64,000 nucleotides of DNA. Source: Desulfobacula sp. (GTDB taxonomy: Bacteria; Desulfobacterota; Desulfobacteria; Desulfobacterales; Desulfobacteraceae). Where the stretch lies: the NCBI RefSeq assembly GCF_030145145.1, contig NZ_JAQYWD010000022.1, forward strand, positions 1-64,000, written 5' to 3'. A model generated the notes under the pieces. That model did not search any database. It saw only the letters and a list, made by a program, of their open reading frames with translations, and was not told where the DNA came from. Each line of letters starts with the position of its first letter. Within the stretch, counting starts at the first letter, position 1. Of this stretch, positions 5,773-12,315 are shown one piece after another. The position numbers and the translations under genes were made by a program.

Positions 5773-6006
5773 AAACTTATCACTTTGTAAAAAAATCATA
5801 CATGAGGGATACCCTTTTTATTTTCAGCCAATACTAAAAAATTTGACTATTCTTTTTGAACCTATCGTAACGATTTGTTTTTTAGGCACTTAATCTATTC
5901 TCAATTGTAAAAATTGATTGTTCTGCAGCACAAAGAGATCCTGGCGCATTTCTTGCTATTTAACAATAACAGAGAAGCAGGGATTACGATAAGAAAGGAG
6001 ATAGCG

Positions 6007-6492
6007 ATGGTAACGGTAAATGACTTGGTAAAATATAAGGTGTTCAGAGGGCTTTCCGATGAAAAAAAGATGTTGATTACTGAAATATCGGAAATGAGGT
6101 CCTATAAAAAAAACGATTATATTTATGAAAGCGGTGATGAAGCAACCCATCTTTTCATCGTGGACCAGGGATTGGTGGGTATGAGAAAATTTGAATCCGG
6201 AGACAATGTGGGCATCTCCTTTGAGGTCCGTTCAAGTGGTGACCTGTTTGGGGCTGCATCTTTCATGGTACCACAAAAATACACGCTGACAGCGGTTTGT
6301 CTTGAAGACTGCAGGATCCTGGTAATGGATGCGCAAAAACTCAAGGTGTTATGCGAAGAAGATCCTGAAATGGGATTTTGGTTGATGAAAAAATTTACCA
6401 GAATTTATTTCAACCGGTACAGGGATGCTTCAAGAAACCTTTACGGGGTGGTTCAGACCCTGAAAGCAATGACATCCTTTCCCAGGCAATAA
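6007..6492 (+). CDS. Stand-alone cyclic-nucleotide-binding domain protein
   Basis: The product is 161 aa from the ATG at 6007, preceded by AAAGGAG at 5994-6000. A longer frame from 5914 lacks a ribosome site. Residues ~10-125 match the cNMP-binding beta-barrel of the CRP/FNR superfamily (YESGDEATHLFIVDQGLVG and SGDLFGAASFMV). The phosphate-binding segment lacks the usual Arg-Thr/Ser pair, so ligand binding is uncertain. The helix-turn-helix that would follow in a CRP-type regulator is absent: the protein stops after one helix. It is therefore likely a signalling or partner protein rather than a DNA-binding regulator. Repeat copy R1 begins 17 bp after the stop codon. Confidence 0.8.
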   Translation: MVTVNDLVKYKVFRGLSDEKKMLITEISEMRSYKKNDYIYESGDEATHLFIVDQGLVGMRKFESGDNVGISFEVRSSGDLFGAASFMVPQKYTLTAVCLEDCRILVMDAQKLKVLCEEDPEMGFWLMKKFTRIYFNRYRDASRNLYGVVQTLKAMTSFPRQ

Positions 6493-6508: not shown

Positions 6509-6644
6509 ACTCAACTGGTTGGCCATTTATGCCTTGGGTCAGGCTTTTTTCATGGCACGGTTTACCCGTCTGGTCATGGTAAAAAGCACCATAAAAAAGC
6601 CTGACCCCGTCCATTAACGCTGAAGACCGAAAAATCAGTTGAGT
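6509..6644. repeat. Dispersed palindromic repeat, copy R1
   Basis: About 136 bp whose ends are inverted (ACTCAACT ... AGTTGAGT). The interior forms a long hairpin between a GGTCAGGCTTTTTTCATGGC-type arm and the matching GCCATAAAAAAGCCTGACCCC-type arm. The core is shared with copies at 12191 (R2) and 41654 (R3). No ORF is inside. It looks like a MITE or REP-type element, and lies 46 bp left of the insertion sequence. Confidence 0.8.
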
Positions 6645-6689: not shown

Positions 6690-6699
6690 CCCCATTATT
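6690..6699. repeat. Left target-site duplication of the ISAs1 element
   Basis: The 10-mer CCCCATTATT directly abuts the left end of the element. The identical 10-mer occurs at 7994-8003, directly after the right end. This shows a fairly recent, simple insertion. Confidence 0.9.
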
Positions 6700-7993
6700 C
6701 AGGGCAATCGCATGTAAAAAAAACATAAGTAATTGATATTATTAAAGATATTTTTGTCTAGACTTTTCGTTATTTTTATTGTAAGTATTAGCAGCAAAAA
6801 CAAGGAGTTGCCAATGCAAGACAAATCGATAACATCGTTTTTTGAAAAAATAGAGGACCAGCGACGTCATAATAAGCTTCATAAACTAATCGATATCATT
6901 ATCATCGCAATTTGTGGAGTGGTAGCCGGGGCAGATACGTATGAACAAATAGAAAATTTTGGTAAAAAGCGTAAGAACTGGCTTTCAACATTTTTGGAAC
7001 TACCGCATGGGATACCATCTCATGATACATTTGGTAGGATTTTTGAACGAATGAACCCCAATGAATTTCAAAACAGTTTTAAACGTTGGATTGAATCTGT
7101 AACAGAACGGACAAAAGGCCAAGTAGTTGCGATTGATGGTAAAACCCTGAGGCGCTCTCATGATCGCTCAAATGACAAAAAGGCCATTCATATGATCAGT
7201 GCCTGGGCTTCATCCAATCAAGTGGTACTGGGTCAATTGAAGACCAGGGAGAAATCAAATGAAATTACCGCCATTCCCAATCTGTTAAAGCTTCTTGATA
7301 TATCAGGATGTATCATCACAATAGATGCCATGGGCACACAAAAAAAGATTGCCAAGACAATCATAAATAAGGATGCGGACTATATCCTCGCCCTGAAAGA
7401 AAATCATAAAACTCTTTATGGTGATACAGTATTATTTTTTAACGAAATGGAAAAAATGAAATTGGAAGGATTTCATTTTGATGAGTATGAAACGGTTGAT
7501 GGGGATCATGGCCGGATTGAGACACGCAAATATGTAATAACCCCTGATATTGGGTGGTTACAGGATAAAGCTAATTGGCCCGGACTGCAATGCCTTGGTA
7601 TGGTGGAAAGCACCCGTAATGTTCAGGGTGAAGTCAGCCACGATAAGCGGTATTATATATCGAGCCTTAAATGTGATGCTAAAAAATTTGGCAATGCGGT
7701 TAGAGCCCATTGGGGGATTGAGAACTCAGTACACTGGGTTTTGGATATTGCATTCAGGGAAGATGAAAGCCGGGTAAGGAAAGGATCAGCGCCGGAAAAT
7801 TTTGCTGCTATACGACACATTGCCTTAAATTTATTACGGAATAATAAAACGTTTAAAGGGAGTGTTAAAACAAAAAGGTTGAATGCTGCTATGGATACGA
7901 AATATTTGTCTGATGTCGTGTTTGAACCGTGAGTGATAAAAATTTATAGCTGAAACGATCGGCACTTCAGAATGTTTACATGCGTTAGCCCTG
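6700..7993 (+). mobile_element. Complete ISAs1-family insertion sequence
   Basis: The element is 1294 bp. Its terminal inverted repeats are CAGGGC-AAT-CGCATGTAAA at 6700-6718 and the inverse of CAGGGC-TAA-CGCATGTAAA at 7975-7993, 19 bp that differ only in the three central bases. Perfect 10-bp target duplications flank it (6690-6699, 7994-8003). It carries one transposase gene (6814-7932) with all catalytic residues, so it is probably still mobile. The right end lies 67 bp upstream of the earliest proposed start of the GlpX-fold protein, so it may have separated that gene from its native promoter. Confidence 0.95.
6814..7932 (+). CDS. ISAs1-family transposase
   Basis: The product is 372 aa from the ATG at 6814, seven bases after AAGGAG. 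An upstream frame extension from 6733 has no ribosome site. The N-terminal DDE_Tnp_1-associated region (FFEKIEDQRRHNK...IIIIAICGVVAGADTYEQI) and the catalytic domain are typical of ISAs1. The DDE triad can be placed at AIDGKTLRRS (first Asp), ITIDAMGTQKKIA (second Asp) and HWGIENSVHWVLD (Glu). The length is normal and there is no frameshift, so the enzyme should be functional. It is enclosed by matching inverted repeats. Confidence 0.95.
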   Translation: MQDKSITSFFEKIEDQRRHNKLHKLIDIIIIAICGVVAGADTYEQIENFGKKRKNWLSTFLELPHGIPSHDTFGRIFERMNPNEFQNSFKRWIESVTERTKGQVVAIDGKTLRRSHDRSNDKKAIHMISAWASSNQVVLGQLKTREKSNEITAIPNLLKLLDISGCIITIDAMGTQKKIAKTIINKDADYILALKENHKTLYGDTVLFFNEMEKMKLEGFHFDEYETVDGDHGRIETRKYVITPDIGWLQDKANWPGLQCLGMVESTRNVQGEVSHDKRYYISSLKCDAKKFGNAVRAHWGIENSVHWVLDIAFREDESRVRKGSAPENFAAIRHIALNLLRNNKTFKGSVKTKRLNAAMDTKYLSDVVFEP

Positions 7994-8003
7994 CCCCATT
8001 ATT
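7994..8003. repeat. Right target-site duplication of the ISAs1 element
   Basis: CCCCATTATT is identical to the 10-mer at 6690-6699. Together they mark the insertion point. Confidence 0.9.
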
Positions 8004-8060
8004 TCAAGCATCTTGGCAAGCGTATAGATCCGTGTTAAAGTTAGCTGGTTCACCCGTGAA

Positions 8061-10709
8061 TTGCTCGGGCACGCCTGGCAATATTGGAAACAATTGGAAA
8101 AAGATATGCCTGAGAAGGCCAATGGAGATCGGTATTTGGACTGGGAACAAAAACAATTTGATAACATCCGCAAAAATTTTTCTAAAAAAATCACACCATT
8201 TTTTGGCGATATAACCGGTTTGCGGGTTGCCAATCGGCTGTCCCATCCCCGCAATGTTCCCGGAGAAATTGAATCAGAGATTCTCCCCCGTTTATTTCAT
8301 TATGTCATTCAAACCGTTGTTGCAACGCATAAGTTTGTTTCGACCAACAGAAATCCTGTTCTGGTCAATATGTCCACAAAGATGGCCAAAGGGGTGTTTT
8401 TAAATCTTGCAATGGATAAGGTGCTCTCTGAGCGAACAAGATCAAGCATCACCTGGGCAAGGAAACAATATGGCGGCATTGCCGGGGTGTTGCCCGAAGG
8501 AACCGTTTTAGGGAAAGGGCAAAAAGAAATAAATATCGCCATAAATGCACTTGCCGGAGTAGACCATATCAATGCAGACAGTGCCTCTGTGATGTCAGCA
8601 ATCTGTGCCACTGAAAAAGACGGTTTGAGAAAGATACCGGACGAAGTTTTATTTAATGGATGTATCATCAGAGAATCCTTTGACCCGTTGCCGGTTTATG
8701 ATGATTTAAAACTGGATAGATATTTTATCCGGTCATTTGCCCGGGAATTAAACAAACAACCGGACGAAATAAAGGTGATTATCCCATCAAGAGAATGCCA
8801 TATCAGCCATAAGGATGATCCCCGGAAAAGGCTTCTGGATATTTTAAAAGAGCAAGGCATCATTGTGAAAACCAGGGATCACAAAAGAATTTTTAAAGAA
8901 GTCAATGAAAACGGATATTTTGAAAATGGAAATGTCTTGATTGTCAGTGATATGTTTATGGCAATTTTTAAATTGATGGAAGGCGGTGCCCATCTTCTTG
9001 TGGGGGCAGACAGGTCCATCAGTTACGCCCAGATATCCTTTGTGATCAAAGCGTTTGGCAAAGGGGAGGCAAAATTTCGATTTGTATCACGGGAAAGACT
9101 ACGGGACCGCCGAAATAACCGACAGAAATGGCCGGATCTATATGGGGAAAACTCCCCCACGATGATAGACAGGGGAGAAATGCGTCGATATGGAATTGTC
9201 GCGGATGATGTGGATGTTTCCGGCGAAAGTGAGTTCATGAAATGGAGTGAACAATTTACAGATAAAGTATTGGTGCCGGGTTGTGACGGGGGGATGTGGG
9301 TTGTGGCGGTCAAAAATTGTAATTTCTGGTTAAAAGGCATGGATGCCCCTGAGTTTAAGGATGATTATTCCAGTGTTACCTTGTCTGTCCTCCATATCGG
9401 TTTGTCCGGTGATATTAAGGTGTTAAAAGTCACCTGCAGTACAACACTTTCTTTTTCAAGTCATGAAGTTTCCAAAAGGATGCCCGGGTATATTCAGGAA
9501 AAACAATTTTTTTTTGCCAAGGCGTTGATCGAATTTGGTGCATTTAATGACGCCCAAAAGCAGTTGCAGGATGCCGGCAGGAATCTTGAGTTAAAAGATC
9601 ACCCCCCTTCCCAACTTGTGAAGACAAAGAAATTGTTCCATATTTATGAAATATACAGAAACCTTCTGAGAATGCTCACCAAAGAAGATTATAATTTACA
9701 GGCGTTGGGCCGTAAAACATCTGATGTGAATCAACAAAATTTTCTGCTGAGTGTTTACATGGAAACACAATTAGGCCTTGTGGGAAACCTGGATGACCGG
9801 ATGTTCAACTATATTGTAAAAAGCGTGCCGGAACTGGCACTGATTATGCGGACCCTATATCAGTATCTTGGCAACAGTTGCAGGTGGGAAGGGCAGGAGG
9901 AATTCAAATCAGGTAATGATGATTTTGATATCAGTATGGTTGCCGCCCTTGAAAATTACAAAAAATCATTAAAGTGCTATCCAGCCGAAGAATTGAGGAA
10001 TCCACGAGAACGGGATTATTACAATTTATATGAAAACTATATTCAATTATGCGGGCATTTTCTGAAATATTCTGATCTGCCCGATCATTACAGTGATAGA
10101 CAATTATATTTTAAAGAATTGTATCAAATTTATATTGAATGCGCCAAAGCACACCTGGCGTTGAATTTTAAAGGCGGTGAAATCTATTTTTCCAAACGTG
10201 CTTTTGAAGTGATTACCGGATCAACGGAAAACTATATCATCGGTGTGTATCCTCTGGTGGCCCGACTTGAAATGCTGAAGTCCTATGAGAGAGAGGGATG
10301 GTTTGAAGAAGCACGGTCAGAGTATAGAAAATATGCCAATATTGATTTATTATGCGCCATTATTGCCGGAGGGGATACATCCCAGATGCAAAATCTGAAA
10401 TTTATCGCTGAGTCCTATTGGCCGCAATTTATCATTGGCTATTTGACCATGAATTATTTTGCCGGCATCGCAATAAATCCGTCTTTGATCTTGAAACAGA
10501 AACATATGAAATACCTTGAAGCAGTAAAAGATTGGATTAAAGAGAATTTTGAGAATATAAGGATTAAAAGGGGGATCATATACGGCACCAATGTCCGCAT
10601 ATCCAGGATAGAAACCCTGGGATATTTGAACTCGGATCAGGATGAGATGATCGGCCGTAGAATGGAAACATCAAAAAAATCCAGGACAAGATCCCTTATA
10701 CCCCGATAA
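8061..10709 (+). CDS. Large protein with degenerate class II fructose-bisphosphatase (GlpX) fold and helical C-terminus
   Basis: The product is about 882 aa from a TTG at 8061. The same frame is open from 8028 and codes plausible residues (SWFTRELLGHAWQYWK) before the first ATG at 8106, so the start is uncertain and may have been altered by the IS inserted just upstream. By eye, residues ~100-465 align almost without gaps to class II fructose-1,6-bisphosphatase (GlpX): residues 156-196 (INIAINALAG...EKDGLRKIPDE) correspond to GlpX DIAVDPIEGT...KG...PD, followed by the LTVTIL-like 237-IKVIIP, the GIGGAPEG-like region near 313-LVGADRS, and a C-terminal TLSVLHIG strand. The catalytic and metal residues are not kept: GEGE is GKGQ (151-154), and DPIEGT is NALAGV. 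A phosphatase role is therefore unlikely. Residues ~480-880 are helical, TPR-like and rich in Tyr/Leu. Its 3' end overlaps the convergent gene by 14 bp. Function unknown. Confidence 0.6.
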   Translation: MLGHAWQYWKQLEKDMPEKANGDRYLDWEQKQFDNIRKNFSKKITPFFGDITGLRVANRLSHPRNVPGEIESEILPRLFHYVIQTVVATHKFVSTNRNPVLVNMSTKMAKGVFLNLAMDKVLSERTRSSITWARKQYGGIAGVLPEGTVLGKGQKEINIAINALAGVDHINADSASVMSAICATEKDGLRKIPDEVLFNGCIIRESFDPLPVYDDLKLDRYFIRSFARELNKQPDEIKVIIPSRECHISHKDDPRKRLLDILKEQGIIVKTRDHKRIFKEVNENGYFENGNVLIVSDMFMAIFKLMEGGAHLLVGADRSISYAQISFVIKAFGKGEAKFRFVSRERLRDRRNNRQKWPDLYGENSPTMIDRGEMRRYGIVADDVDVSGESEFMKWSEQFTDKVLVPGCDGGMWVVAVKNCNFWLKGMDAPEFKDDYSSVTLSVLHIGLSGDIKVLKVTCSTTLSFSSHEVSKRMPGYIQEKQFFFAKALIEFGAFNDAQKQLQDAGRNLELKDHPPSQLVKTKKLFHIYEIYRNLLRMLTKEDYNLQALGRKTSDVNQQNFLLSVYMETQLGLVGNLDDRMFNYIVKSVPELALIMRTLYQYLGNSCRWEGQEEFKSGNDDFDISMVAALENYKKSLKCYPAEELRNPRERDYYNLYENYIQLCGHFLKYSDLPDHYSDRQLYFKELYQIYIECAKAHLALNFKGGEIYFSKRAFEVITGSTENYIIGVYPLVARLEMLKSYEREGWFEEARSEYRKYANIDLLCAIIAGGDTSQMQNLKFIAESYWPQFIIGYLTMNYFAGIAINPSLILKQKHMKYLEAVKDWIKENFENIRIKRGIIYGTNVRISRIETLGYLNSDQDEMIGRRMETSKKSRTRSLIPR

Positions 10710-12165
10710 TTTGCTTCATCGGTATTCCGTCACGGGCATTTCCGCGGATCAACCCGAAAGATTTCACTCTTGGTGCCTTATTAATATAACCGGGCTGTAA
10801 AAAGGTGTTTTTCATCTGAATCTCCATAAAAACCTCTTCGGACATATCGTATCCATGACGCGCGCTTAACTTTTTAGCCAGATAATAAACGTCTTCAAGT
10901 TGATCAATCTTAATCATATGATCCACATGGAGAAAAATTTCAGGATAGACATTGAGCTTCTCCCTGACCCACGGCGTATTGGAAAATTTTTCAGCATAAA
11001 TATCATTGATGTTCATATTATCTGCCAGGCCGGTTATACAGTCCATGGTTTTTGAAAAAATTTCATCCCTGTATCTGTCCAGGTAATTGTTTTCTGTCCC
11101 TTCTAATTGGCCTCGGAAGGCCACCGTCGTTTCAATGGCATCCACCGCCAGAATAATATAATCCGAGCGACCGGGAGTGATACTCTGAAATTCAAGACAT
11201 CCTGACGCTGAAACAAAAAGGGGTAACAGGTGAACTTTCATTACAAATTCATTATTAAAATATACCTTTAATATTTGATAATTCCGGTCCAGTATCCATG
11301 AAAAAACTGTCCAGAATATATTCTCAATATTGATATCCGACTGGAAACCCCGTTTATCTGCCGTACAATCGCTGGTTATTTTTCCCAATTTCAAAAAAGA
11401 TTCATCCCTTGTGGCATATTCAAATTCAATCCCGCTTCCTTTTCTTGCCTTTAATCCCTTGATTTGTTTTAAAGGGTTAAATGTGTTGAGTTCAAGCAGA
11501 TAAGAACAGATTTCATCGGTAAATCCCTGGATCATCTCTTCACTCAATGATAATAATTGCTCTCCTGTAAGTTGTTTAATCGCCATCATAGTGGCATGGC
11601 AGTTGATATCATTCAGGACTTTTTGTATCTGCTGAGTGCCTTTACCAACGGATGATTTAATCTTTCTTTGTAAAATCAGGGCGGTTTTTTTCAAGAAAAC
11701 ATCAGGGTGAATGGAATTTAAGATATCTTTTCTGATCAAACCGCTATCTGATAGGTGTTGTCGAATATCAGCGTTAGAAAACTGGTCAATAATGGCTTTA
11801 TTTTTCCGTATCAGCCCTTTTAACAAACGGGTATCATGGATGTTGAAAAAAGGCGCCGTGCAGATTCCAAACTCGTTTTCCAGATCCCTGTGCCAGGTGT
11901 TGAAAAACTGATGAACTTCTCCTTTCAGGTTTATTTTTTTTCTTTCAAGAAGATCCTTTATAAAATATCCGATTTTAAGATTCAGGACTTTGTTTTCCTG
12001 CCGTTTTTGATTTTGTTCGCTTTTTTTTTCAGAAACAATTCCGTAAATGCTCGGGAACTGGCCAAATCGATCTTTTGCCTCATTTAAGGAAATATCCATT
12101 GGTCCCTGGGCATCACTGAATCCATTAATCAACGGATTATATTCTCGGAGCCGGGTGTCAGGCAT
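10696..12165 (-). CDS. Unrecognised protein, convergent with the GlpX-fold gene
   Basis: The product is 489 aa from the ATG at 12165, or 498 aa from a GTG at 12192. The GTG lies at the edge of repeat R2 and has no ribosome site; the ATG has AAGGA 13 bases upstream, also not ideal. I do not recognise a family. There is no signal peptide or membrane segment; it looks like a soluble protein with helical N-terminal half (residues ~60-240) and a mixed alpha/beta C-terminal half. Conspicuous segments are LKLGKITSDCTADKRGF at ~285-301, then WILDRNYQILKVYF and KVHLLPLFV, reminiscent of an acyltransferase-like sheet, but this is weak. The C-terminus ends GIPMKQIIGV. Its 3' end overlaps the convergent 882-aa gene by 14 bp. 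A functional link to that neighbour is possible only by position. Confidence 0.7.
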   Translation of the reverse strand: MPDTRLREYNPLINGFSDAQGPMDISLNEAKDRFGQFPSIYGIVSEKKSEQNQKRQENKVLNLKIGYFIKDLLERKKINLKGEVHQFFNTWHRDLENEFGICTAPFFNIHDTRLLKGLIRKNKAIIDQFSNADIRQHLSDSGLIRKDILNSIHPDVFLKKTALILQRKIKSSVGKGTQQIQKVLNDINCHATMMAIKQLTGEQLLSLSEEMIQGFTDEICSYLLELNTFNPLKQIKGLKARKGSGIEFEYATRDESFLKLGKITSDCTADKRGFQSDINIENIFWTVFSWILDRNYQILKVYFNNEFVMKVHLLPLFVSASGCLEFQSITPGRSDYIILAVDAIETTVAFRGQLEGTENNYLDRYRDEIFSKTMDCITGLADNMNINDIYAEKFSNTPWVREKLNVYPEIFLHVDHMIKIDQLEDVYYLAKKLSARHGYDMSEEVFMEIQMKNTFLQPGYINKAPRVKSFGLIRGNARDGIPMKQIIGV

Positions 12166-12190
12166 CTTTATTTTGATATCCTTTATAATC

Positions 12191-12315
12191 ACTCAACTTT
12201 CGGTGTTGGCCATTTTTTCATGGGGTCAGGCATTCTTTAGGGCACTTTTTATTCATTTGGTCATGAAATAGTGATAAAACGCACCATAAAAAAGCCTGAC
12301 CCCGTCCATTAAGGC
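12191..12315. repeat. Dispersed palindromic repeat, copy R2
   Basis: It starts ACTCAACTTTCGGTGTTGGCC and contains GGGGTCAGGCATTC and the closing arm CATAAAAAAGCCTGACCCC, then GTCCATTAAGG, as in R1. The right terminal inverted repeat is eroded. It lies immediately upstream of the 489-aa orphan gene and downstream of the PEBP gene. R1 and R2 have the same orientation and together bracket the IS and both unusual genes. Confidence 0.75.

Follow-up and report, generated by a model that had tools for sequence, protein, structure and literature searches.

A predicted pseudoenzyme of the class II fructose-1,6-bisphosphatase (GlpX) family with a long, probably TPR-like C-terminal extension in Desulfobacula

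An open reading frame of 882 codons on a Desulfobacula sp. contig (NZ_JAQYWD010000022.1, of which the first 64,000 nucleotides form the window analysed here) raises the question of whether a sugar phosphatase fold has been retained in a protein that no longer carries out the chemistry. An initial annotation, made from the letters of the sequence, had described the product as a class II fructose-1,6-bisphosphatase (FBPase; GlpX) fold without its catalytic residues, followed by a large helical extension, and had suggested a sensor or scaffold. The frame itself was found as described: it is open without interruption from 8061 to 10709 on the forward strand, beginning with TTG, and extends upstream to a stop at 8025-8027, giving 893 open codons in all. 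The ATG at 8106, which sits behind GGAAAAA and would yield a protein of 867 residues, is considered the more likely start. In the one homologue that was found, an 878-residue Desulfosarcina protein, the ATG sits behind GGGAAAAA.

By itself, the window protein passes no GlpX cut-off. Its sole match in Pfam-A (E <= 10) is to FBPase_glpX, at residues 141-247, with an E value of 0.012 and 15 bits, below the curated PF03320 cut-off of 27 bits; NCBIfam gave no match, and no GlpX was found by phmmer against the PDB (E <= 10). Matches to a type III needle protein and an AP2 factor in that last search were set aside as chance. The connection to GlpX runs instead through the homologue, which is encoded in a Desulfosarcina sp. 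MAG (L009, JABZFO010000015.1, a 24-kb contig) and aligns with residues 149-505 of the window protein at 23% identity (BLAST pairwise, E 5e-12). With 34.4 bits (E 1.4e-8), the homologue scores above the curated threshold of PF03320; it reaches the E. coli GlpX structures at 3e-5 (phmmer against the PDB), and the similarity between the GlpX parts of the two proteins was reached by none of 300 shuffles. A GlpX relative of this kind thus misses curated annotation cut-offs and is visible only via an intermediate.

A profile of the two proteins was set by hhalign against one built from 11 canonical GlpX sequences, giving a probability of 94% over 192 columns (residues 116-343) and an E value of 1.4e-7, which holds for that single comparison. 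Against the PDB, the best 6 of 16 matches of the pair profile were GlpX (E 0.026-0.11). The conserved blocks are collinear with those of GlpX in the multiple alignment A4, and IKVIIPSRE and LLVGADRS align where they had been placed by eye. The resemblance claimed in the initial annotation is therefore borne out by the homologue and by profile-profile comparison, even though the protein's own Pfam score is weak. On the sequence comparisons, residues ~80-465 (8298-9455, forward strand) are assigned to a very diverged class II FBPase domain, with hhalign covering 116-343 and the multiple alignment and a structure model covering the remainder. This assignment is firm because it draws on the homologue links, on the profile-profile comparison and, less independently, on fold comparison. 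The N-terminal stretch, residues 1-79 (8061-8297, forward strand), has no detectable relation to the N-terminus of the homologue; the score of the first ~80 residues was reached by 109 of 300 shuffles in local and 68 of 300 in global alignment.

It is exceedingly improbable that the protein is unrelated to GlpX and that a chance likeness was read into it by eye. The weak scores of its own sequence, in Pfam and in phmmer against the PDB, are what such a coincidence would give; the homology links that run by way of the Desulfosarcina protein, the hhalign probability and the collinear blocks are not, and BLAST to the homologue, Pfam and hhalign together refute the idea in practice.

Structure prediction was consistent with the GlpX assignment. 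The full-length model is poor (mean pLDDT 38.9) and gave nothing at E <= 0.001 in Foldseek; its first six rows were class II FBPases, the best at 0.0019, to which little weight is given. A model of residues 61-467 is intermediate in quality (mean pLDDT 52.3, pTM 0.54); between residues 221 and 320, its ten-residue blocks reach pLDDT 66-90. All 24 of its PDB matches at E <= 0.001 were class II FBPases (best 1.4e-11), the following row standing at E 0.34, and VIA Z scores were 18.4-20.5 for 17 class II FBPase entries against 10.8 for the next entry. Residues 61-467 are thus modelled with the class II FBPase fold, but because GlpX sequences made up 10 of the 12 rows of the folding alignment, the model speaks for consistency and is not an independent proof. 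Neither outcome that the initial annotation had named as refuting, a profile-profile search without GlpX or a model with another N-terminal fold, was obtained. A further alignment, A6 (27 rows), was kept out of folding, its DGD block being out of register.

Ten active-site residues of E. coli GlpX are named in PMC5892879: D33, E57, D85, E88, T90, Y119, K164, R166, D188 and E213. In alignment A4, their equivalents in the window protein are, in the same order, M108, R134, N162, A165, V167, L197, R244, C246, N291 and S321, and those in the homologue are D99, E128, D176, E179, S181, Y215, R263, R265, N307 and E337. When Arg at the K164 position is counted as kept (Arg is found there in 7 of the 11 canonical sequences), the window protein keeps one of the ten residues and the homologue eight, and these counts are the same in all four alignments. 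Individual equivalences are less stable: that of D33 shifts among the four alignments (M108, M108, N103 or K110), and those of D186/D188 are N289/N291 in three alignments and E280/N282 in A6.

The replaced residues include those of the metal site and the nucleophile. The M1 metal of class II FBPases is associated with the DPLE stretch and Glu57, and the nucleophile is the Thr of DPLEGT, according to PMC10289334; as judged against that description, metal site and nucleophile are both absent from the window protein, which has R134, NALA and V167 at these positions. NALAGV (residues 162-167; 8544-8561, forward strand) occupies the place of DPxEGT, with D85, E88 and T90 becoming N, A and V, and this equivalence, proposed in the initial annotation, was upheld by the multiple alignment and by hhalign. 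The accompanying proposal that GEGE has become GKGQ was a misalignment: all four alignments and hhalign put GEGE on ARKQ (133-136; 8457-8468, forward strand), the first Glu (E57) falling on R134, and GKGQ (151-154) lies in the turn ahead of the DPxEGT strand. The triad that binds the 6-phosphate (Y119, K/R164 and R166 in PMC5892879) reads L197, R244 and C246, one of the three being kept; RECH (244-247; 8790-8801, forward strand) is the equivalent of RPRH, with R244 and H247 kept and C246 at the R166 position. In three of the four alignments DGD corresponds to NGN (289-291; 8925-8933, forward strand), as it also does in the homologue, and GADRSIS (315-321; 9003-9023, forward strand) takes the place of GxGGAPE, with S321 at the E213 position. 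The claimed loss of catalytic residues therefore stands, and its extent, nine of the ten published positions, is wider than had been noted.

Invariant columns give the same picture. The 11 canonical sequences, some of them close to one another, share 67 such columns, and the window protein keeps 12 of these and the homologue 28. The 23 charged or polar columns among them account for 1 and 11 of these, and the remaining 44 for 11 and 17. From these counts, the window protein retains part of the skeleton of the family and almost none of its chemistry. The homologue, too, departs from the family at other conserved sites (E59 to Q, D61 to Y and D186 to N), so that its own activity is not assured.

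On its sequence, the window protein is thus a predicted pseudoenzyme, in the sense of an enzyme fold from which the essential catalytic residues have been lost, and we infer strongly that it is not a sugar bisphosphatase. Alternatively, catalysis might persist in a remodelled active site that acts on another substrate. The homologue keeps eight of ten residues, yet in three of four alignments both proteins read NGN where DGD would stand, which could mean that a change of substrate came first. All five metal-site carboxylates are gone from the window protein, however, and neither Thr nor Ser stands at the nucleophile position, which makes a surviving enzyme very unlikely.

The domain is followed by a C-terminal extension of ~417 residues (466-882; 9456-10706, forward strand), which had been described as TPR-like. 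The homologue supports this description, its C-terminus passing the Pfam cut-offs for TPR_1 (31 bits) and TPR_19 (30 bits). The window protein itself has a single, sub-threshold TPR match, to TPR_14 (E 1, 10.7 bits, residues ~734-758), in a stretch that aligns close to the second TPR stretch of the homologue (731-754). When the two C-terminal parts were compared, their score was reached by 1 of 300 shuffles in global and 16 of 300 in local alignment; for three sub-stretches the numbers were 41, 4 and 26 of 300. The extension is probably a TPR-like helical arm, a moderately supported label that is taken over from the homologue.

Proteins of this kind are rare. All searches together (match threshold E <= 0.001, in genome samples that overlap) found two members. 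NCBI places the genus of the homologue in the Desulfobacterales, and the genome that carries it is assigned to the same order as the window. With the window protein as query, only the protein itself was found in 58 related genomes, there being no close relative in the 57 others; in the class, 2 of 389 genomes matched, with itself and the homologue (E 8.9e-6), and in the phylum 1 of 395, with itself. The homologue as query found itself and an ordinary 324-aa GlpX among its own relatives (2 of 60 genomes) and the window protein in the family of the latter (1 of 86). A profile of the pair matched 2 of 389 genomes in the order and 1 of 30 in the family of the homologue and added no new member. In a collection of genome contigs the window protein found none and the homologue only itself; viral contigs gave no match for either protein, and phages none for the window protein. 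Plasmids gave no match for the window protein; the homologue matched two GlpX there, of which one is annotated as glpX and the other is a 329-aa GlpX frame. The rest of the Desulfobacula genome contains no second PF03320 match, even at E <= 1.

When 395 genomes of the phylum were scanned with PF03320, 79 came out over the cut-off; 77 matches exceeded 300 bits and five lay at 46-60 bits. The latter come from a second divergent GlpX-like family (L029-L033), present in 5 of the 395 genomes in frames of 490-577 aa. These proteins of ~560 aa resemble the window protein in carrying a GlpX-like domain within a longer protein and differ from it in having kept D-V-I-(D/E)-G-T. A clear GEGE block is missing from them, phmmer queries with the window protein and with the homologue matched none of them at E <= 10, and the two that were scanned had no TPR match. 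A canonical GlpX query found nothing on viral contigs, where two DNA patterns did find GlpX. Of the 36 viral GlpX frames found (L020-L028, L034-L062), 25 distinct ones were aligned; 15 have GEGK and 2 GEGI for GEGE, and 19 have DCD for DGD. They are possibly a virus-borne group with an altered site, as far as these motifs indicate. On one viral contig of 2663 bp (L025, 439-2661, forward strand), a single open frame of 741 aa carries a putative RNA-phage replicase fused to a GlpX domain and is possibly a chimeric assembly.

Upstream of the gene lies an insertion sequence of 1294 bp (6700-7993, forward strand), with a transposase-like ORF (6733-7932) that is presumably ISAs1-like. Its ends are 19-bp inverted copies (89%), and on either side, at 6690-6699 and 7994-8003, stands the 10-bp target duplication CCCCATTATT, without a mismatch. 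The element stops 57 bp short of the TTG at 8061. The stop at 8025-8027 falls between the element and the gene and ends the frame upstream, so a longer frame has not been truncated by the element. Its insertion (6690-8003) may have changed the promoter of the 882-aa gene.

The other neighbours of the gene are as follows. Further upstream, a 192-aa cNMP-binding protein (5914-6492, forward strand; PF00027, E 5.4e-17) has no further domain match, its top NCBIfam match being a family 2B encapsulin shell protein far under the cut-off, and a perfect 15-bp inverted repeat, GGGTCAGGCTTTTTT, with a 42-nt spacer (6536-6607) lies between its gene and the insertion sequence. Downstream, a convergent ORF of 498 aa (10696-12192, reverse strand) overlaps the 3' end of the 882-aa gene by 14 bases and is without a Pfam, NCBIfam or PADLOC match; the genome carries one broken relative of it (33 aa aligned, 67% identity). 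By eye, the neighbourhoods of the window protein and its Desulfosarcina homologue have nothing in common; the homologue adjoins genes that resemble, again by eye, a polyhydroxyalkanoate set (thiolase, synthase, reductase and phasin-like; L003, 11798-17182). Neither the window protein nor the homologue nor the convergent ORF matched a PADLOC model (E <= 1), and a role of the window protein in anti-phage defence was set aside on that ground.

The insertion sequence also bears on whether the gene is simply in decay, its function lost, its residue losses reflecting drift and its expression perhaps cut by the element upstream. Losses that the homologue does not share, the 57 bp between element and TTG, and a single copy without a close relative in 57 related genomes would all fit a decaying gene. 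Against decay, 882 codons are open without a stop, the element sits clear of the reading frame, on the far side of the stop at 8025-8027, and structural glycines have been retained (G147, G151, G166, G266, G290, G315, G335 and G426). The codon score, with 13 other genes of the window as reference, also favours the frame itself (0.737) over the other two (0.643 and 0.695), although the control for this is weak, the in-frame score being highest in 16 of 19 genes scored and failing for the cNMP-binding, transposase-like and convergent orphan genes. We regard decay as improbable.

What, then, might such a protein do? The reading to which we give moderate preference is that of a pseudoenzyme in which the GlpX domain acts as the core, structural or for docking, that supports the helical arm. 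A GlpX domain without metal-binding, nucleophilic and most substrate-binding residues would be followed by an arm of ~417 residues. Less certainly, the domain could act as an assembly core or docking surface, canonical class II FBPases being 222 tetramers (PMC5892879), and the arm would grip partner proteins, making the whole a non-catalytic scaffold. A partial analogy is offered by SuhB, a protein of the inositol monophosphatase fold, in which a sugar-phosphatase fold serves in a complex: it is a structural part of the rrn antitermination complex, and its phenotype is not tied to phosphatase activity, according to PMC4807359. Its structure (6tqn_S) scores VIA Z 8.4 against the 61-467 model. 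SuhB belongs to a different family from the window protein, is active as a phosphatase and presumably has no helical arm.

The initial annotation had left the choice between sensor and scaffold open. As a sensor, the dead GlpX domain would still bind a phosphorylated metabolite and signal via the helical arm; R244 at the K164 position, H247 and the overall fold are retained, and certain class II FBPases possess an allosteric pocket (for AMP in the Synechocystis enzyme, according to PMC5892879). Of the 6-phosphate triad, however, Y119 and R166 have become L197 and C246, the ring-contacting D186/D188 are N289/N291 in three of four alignments, and none of the metal-site carboxylates D33, E57, D85, E88 and E213 is left. 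Because most of the 6-phosphate and ring contacts have been lost, a fructose-bisphosphate sensor is less likely than a scaffold, and we consider a ligand sensor rather unlikely.

The scaffold reading can be set against the two closest comparisons. To canonical GlpX (PF03320; TIGR00330; PDB 3d1r, 2r8t, 6ayu, 7txb and 3rpl) the window protein is alike in fold and block order over ~80-465, in several structural glycines and in the R-x-x-H block; it differs in nine of the ten active-site residues, in longer loops and in the C-terminal extension. With the Desulfosarcina protein it shares the two-part layout, the length and NGN at the DGD position, whereas that protein has kept eight of the ten residues, passes the GlpX and TPR cut-offs of Pfam and stands in a different neighbourhood (by eye). 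The residue loss, whose conservation the initial annotation had proposed to check, is thus not conserved: it is seen in one protein, the sole other member found having kept most of the site. It appears to belong to the lineage of the window protein, the layout being common to both. From these two members, the two-part layout would have come first, with DGD already changed to NGN, and the full loss of the site later in the window lineage.

Full-text searches of open-licence literature found, among the matches listed, no pseudoenzyme from the class II FBPase family, and they found no description of a GlpX-tetratricopeptide fusion protein and no pseudophosphatase tied to fructose bisphosphatase. 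Pseudoenzymes are a known kind of protein; one derived from a class II FBPase and equipped with a probable helical arm appears, on these searches, to be new. The pair forms a natural before-and-after, with one layout in which the phosphatase site is mostly present in one protein and almost gone in the other. If this is true, one can ask by direct experiment whether an enzyme becomes coupled to an interaction module before it loses catalysis, and the two proteins may capture an enzyme in transition to a new role.
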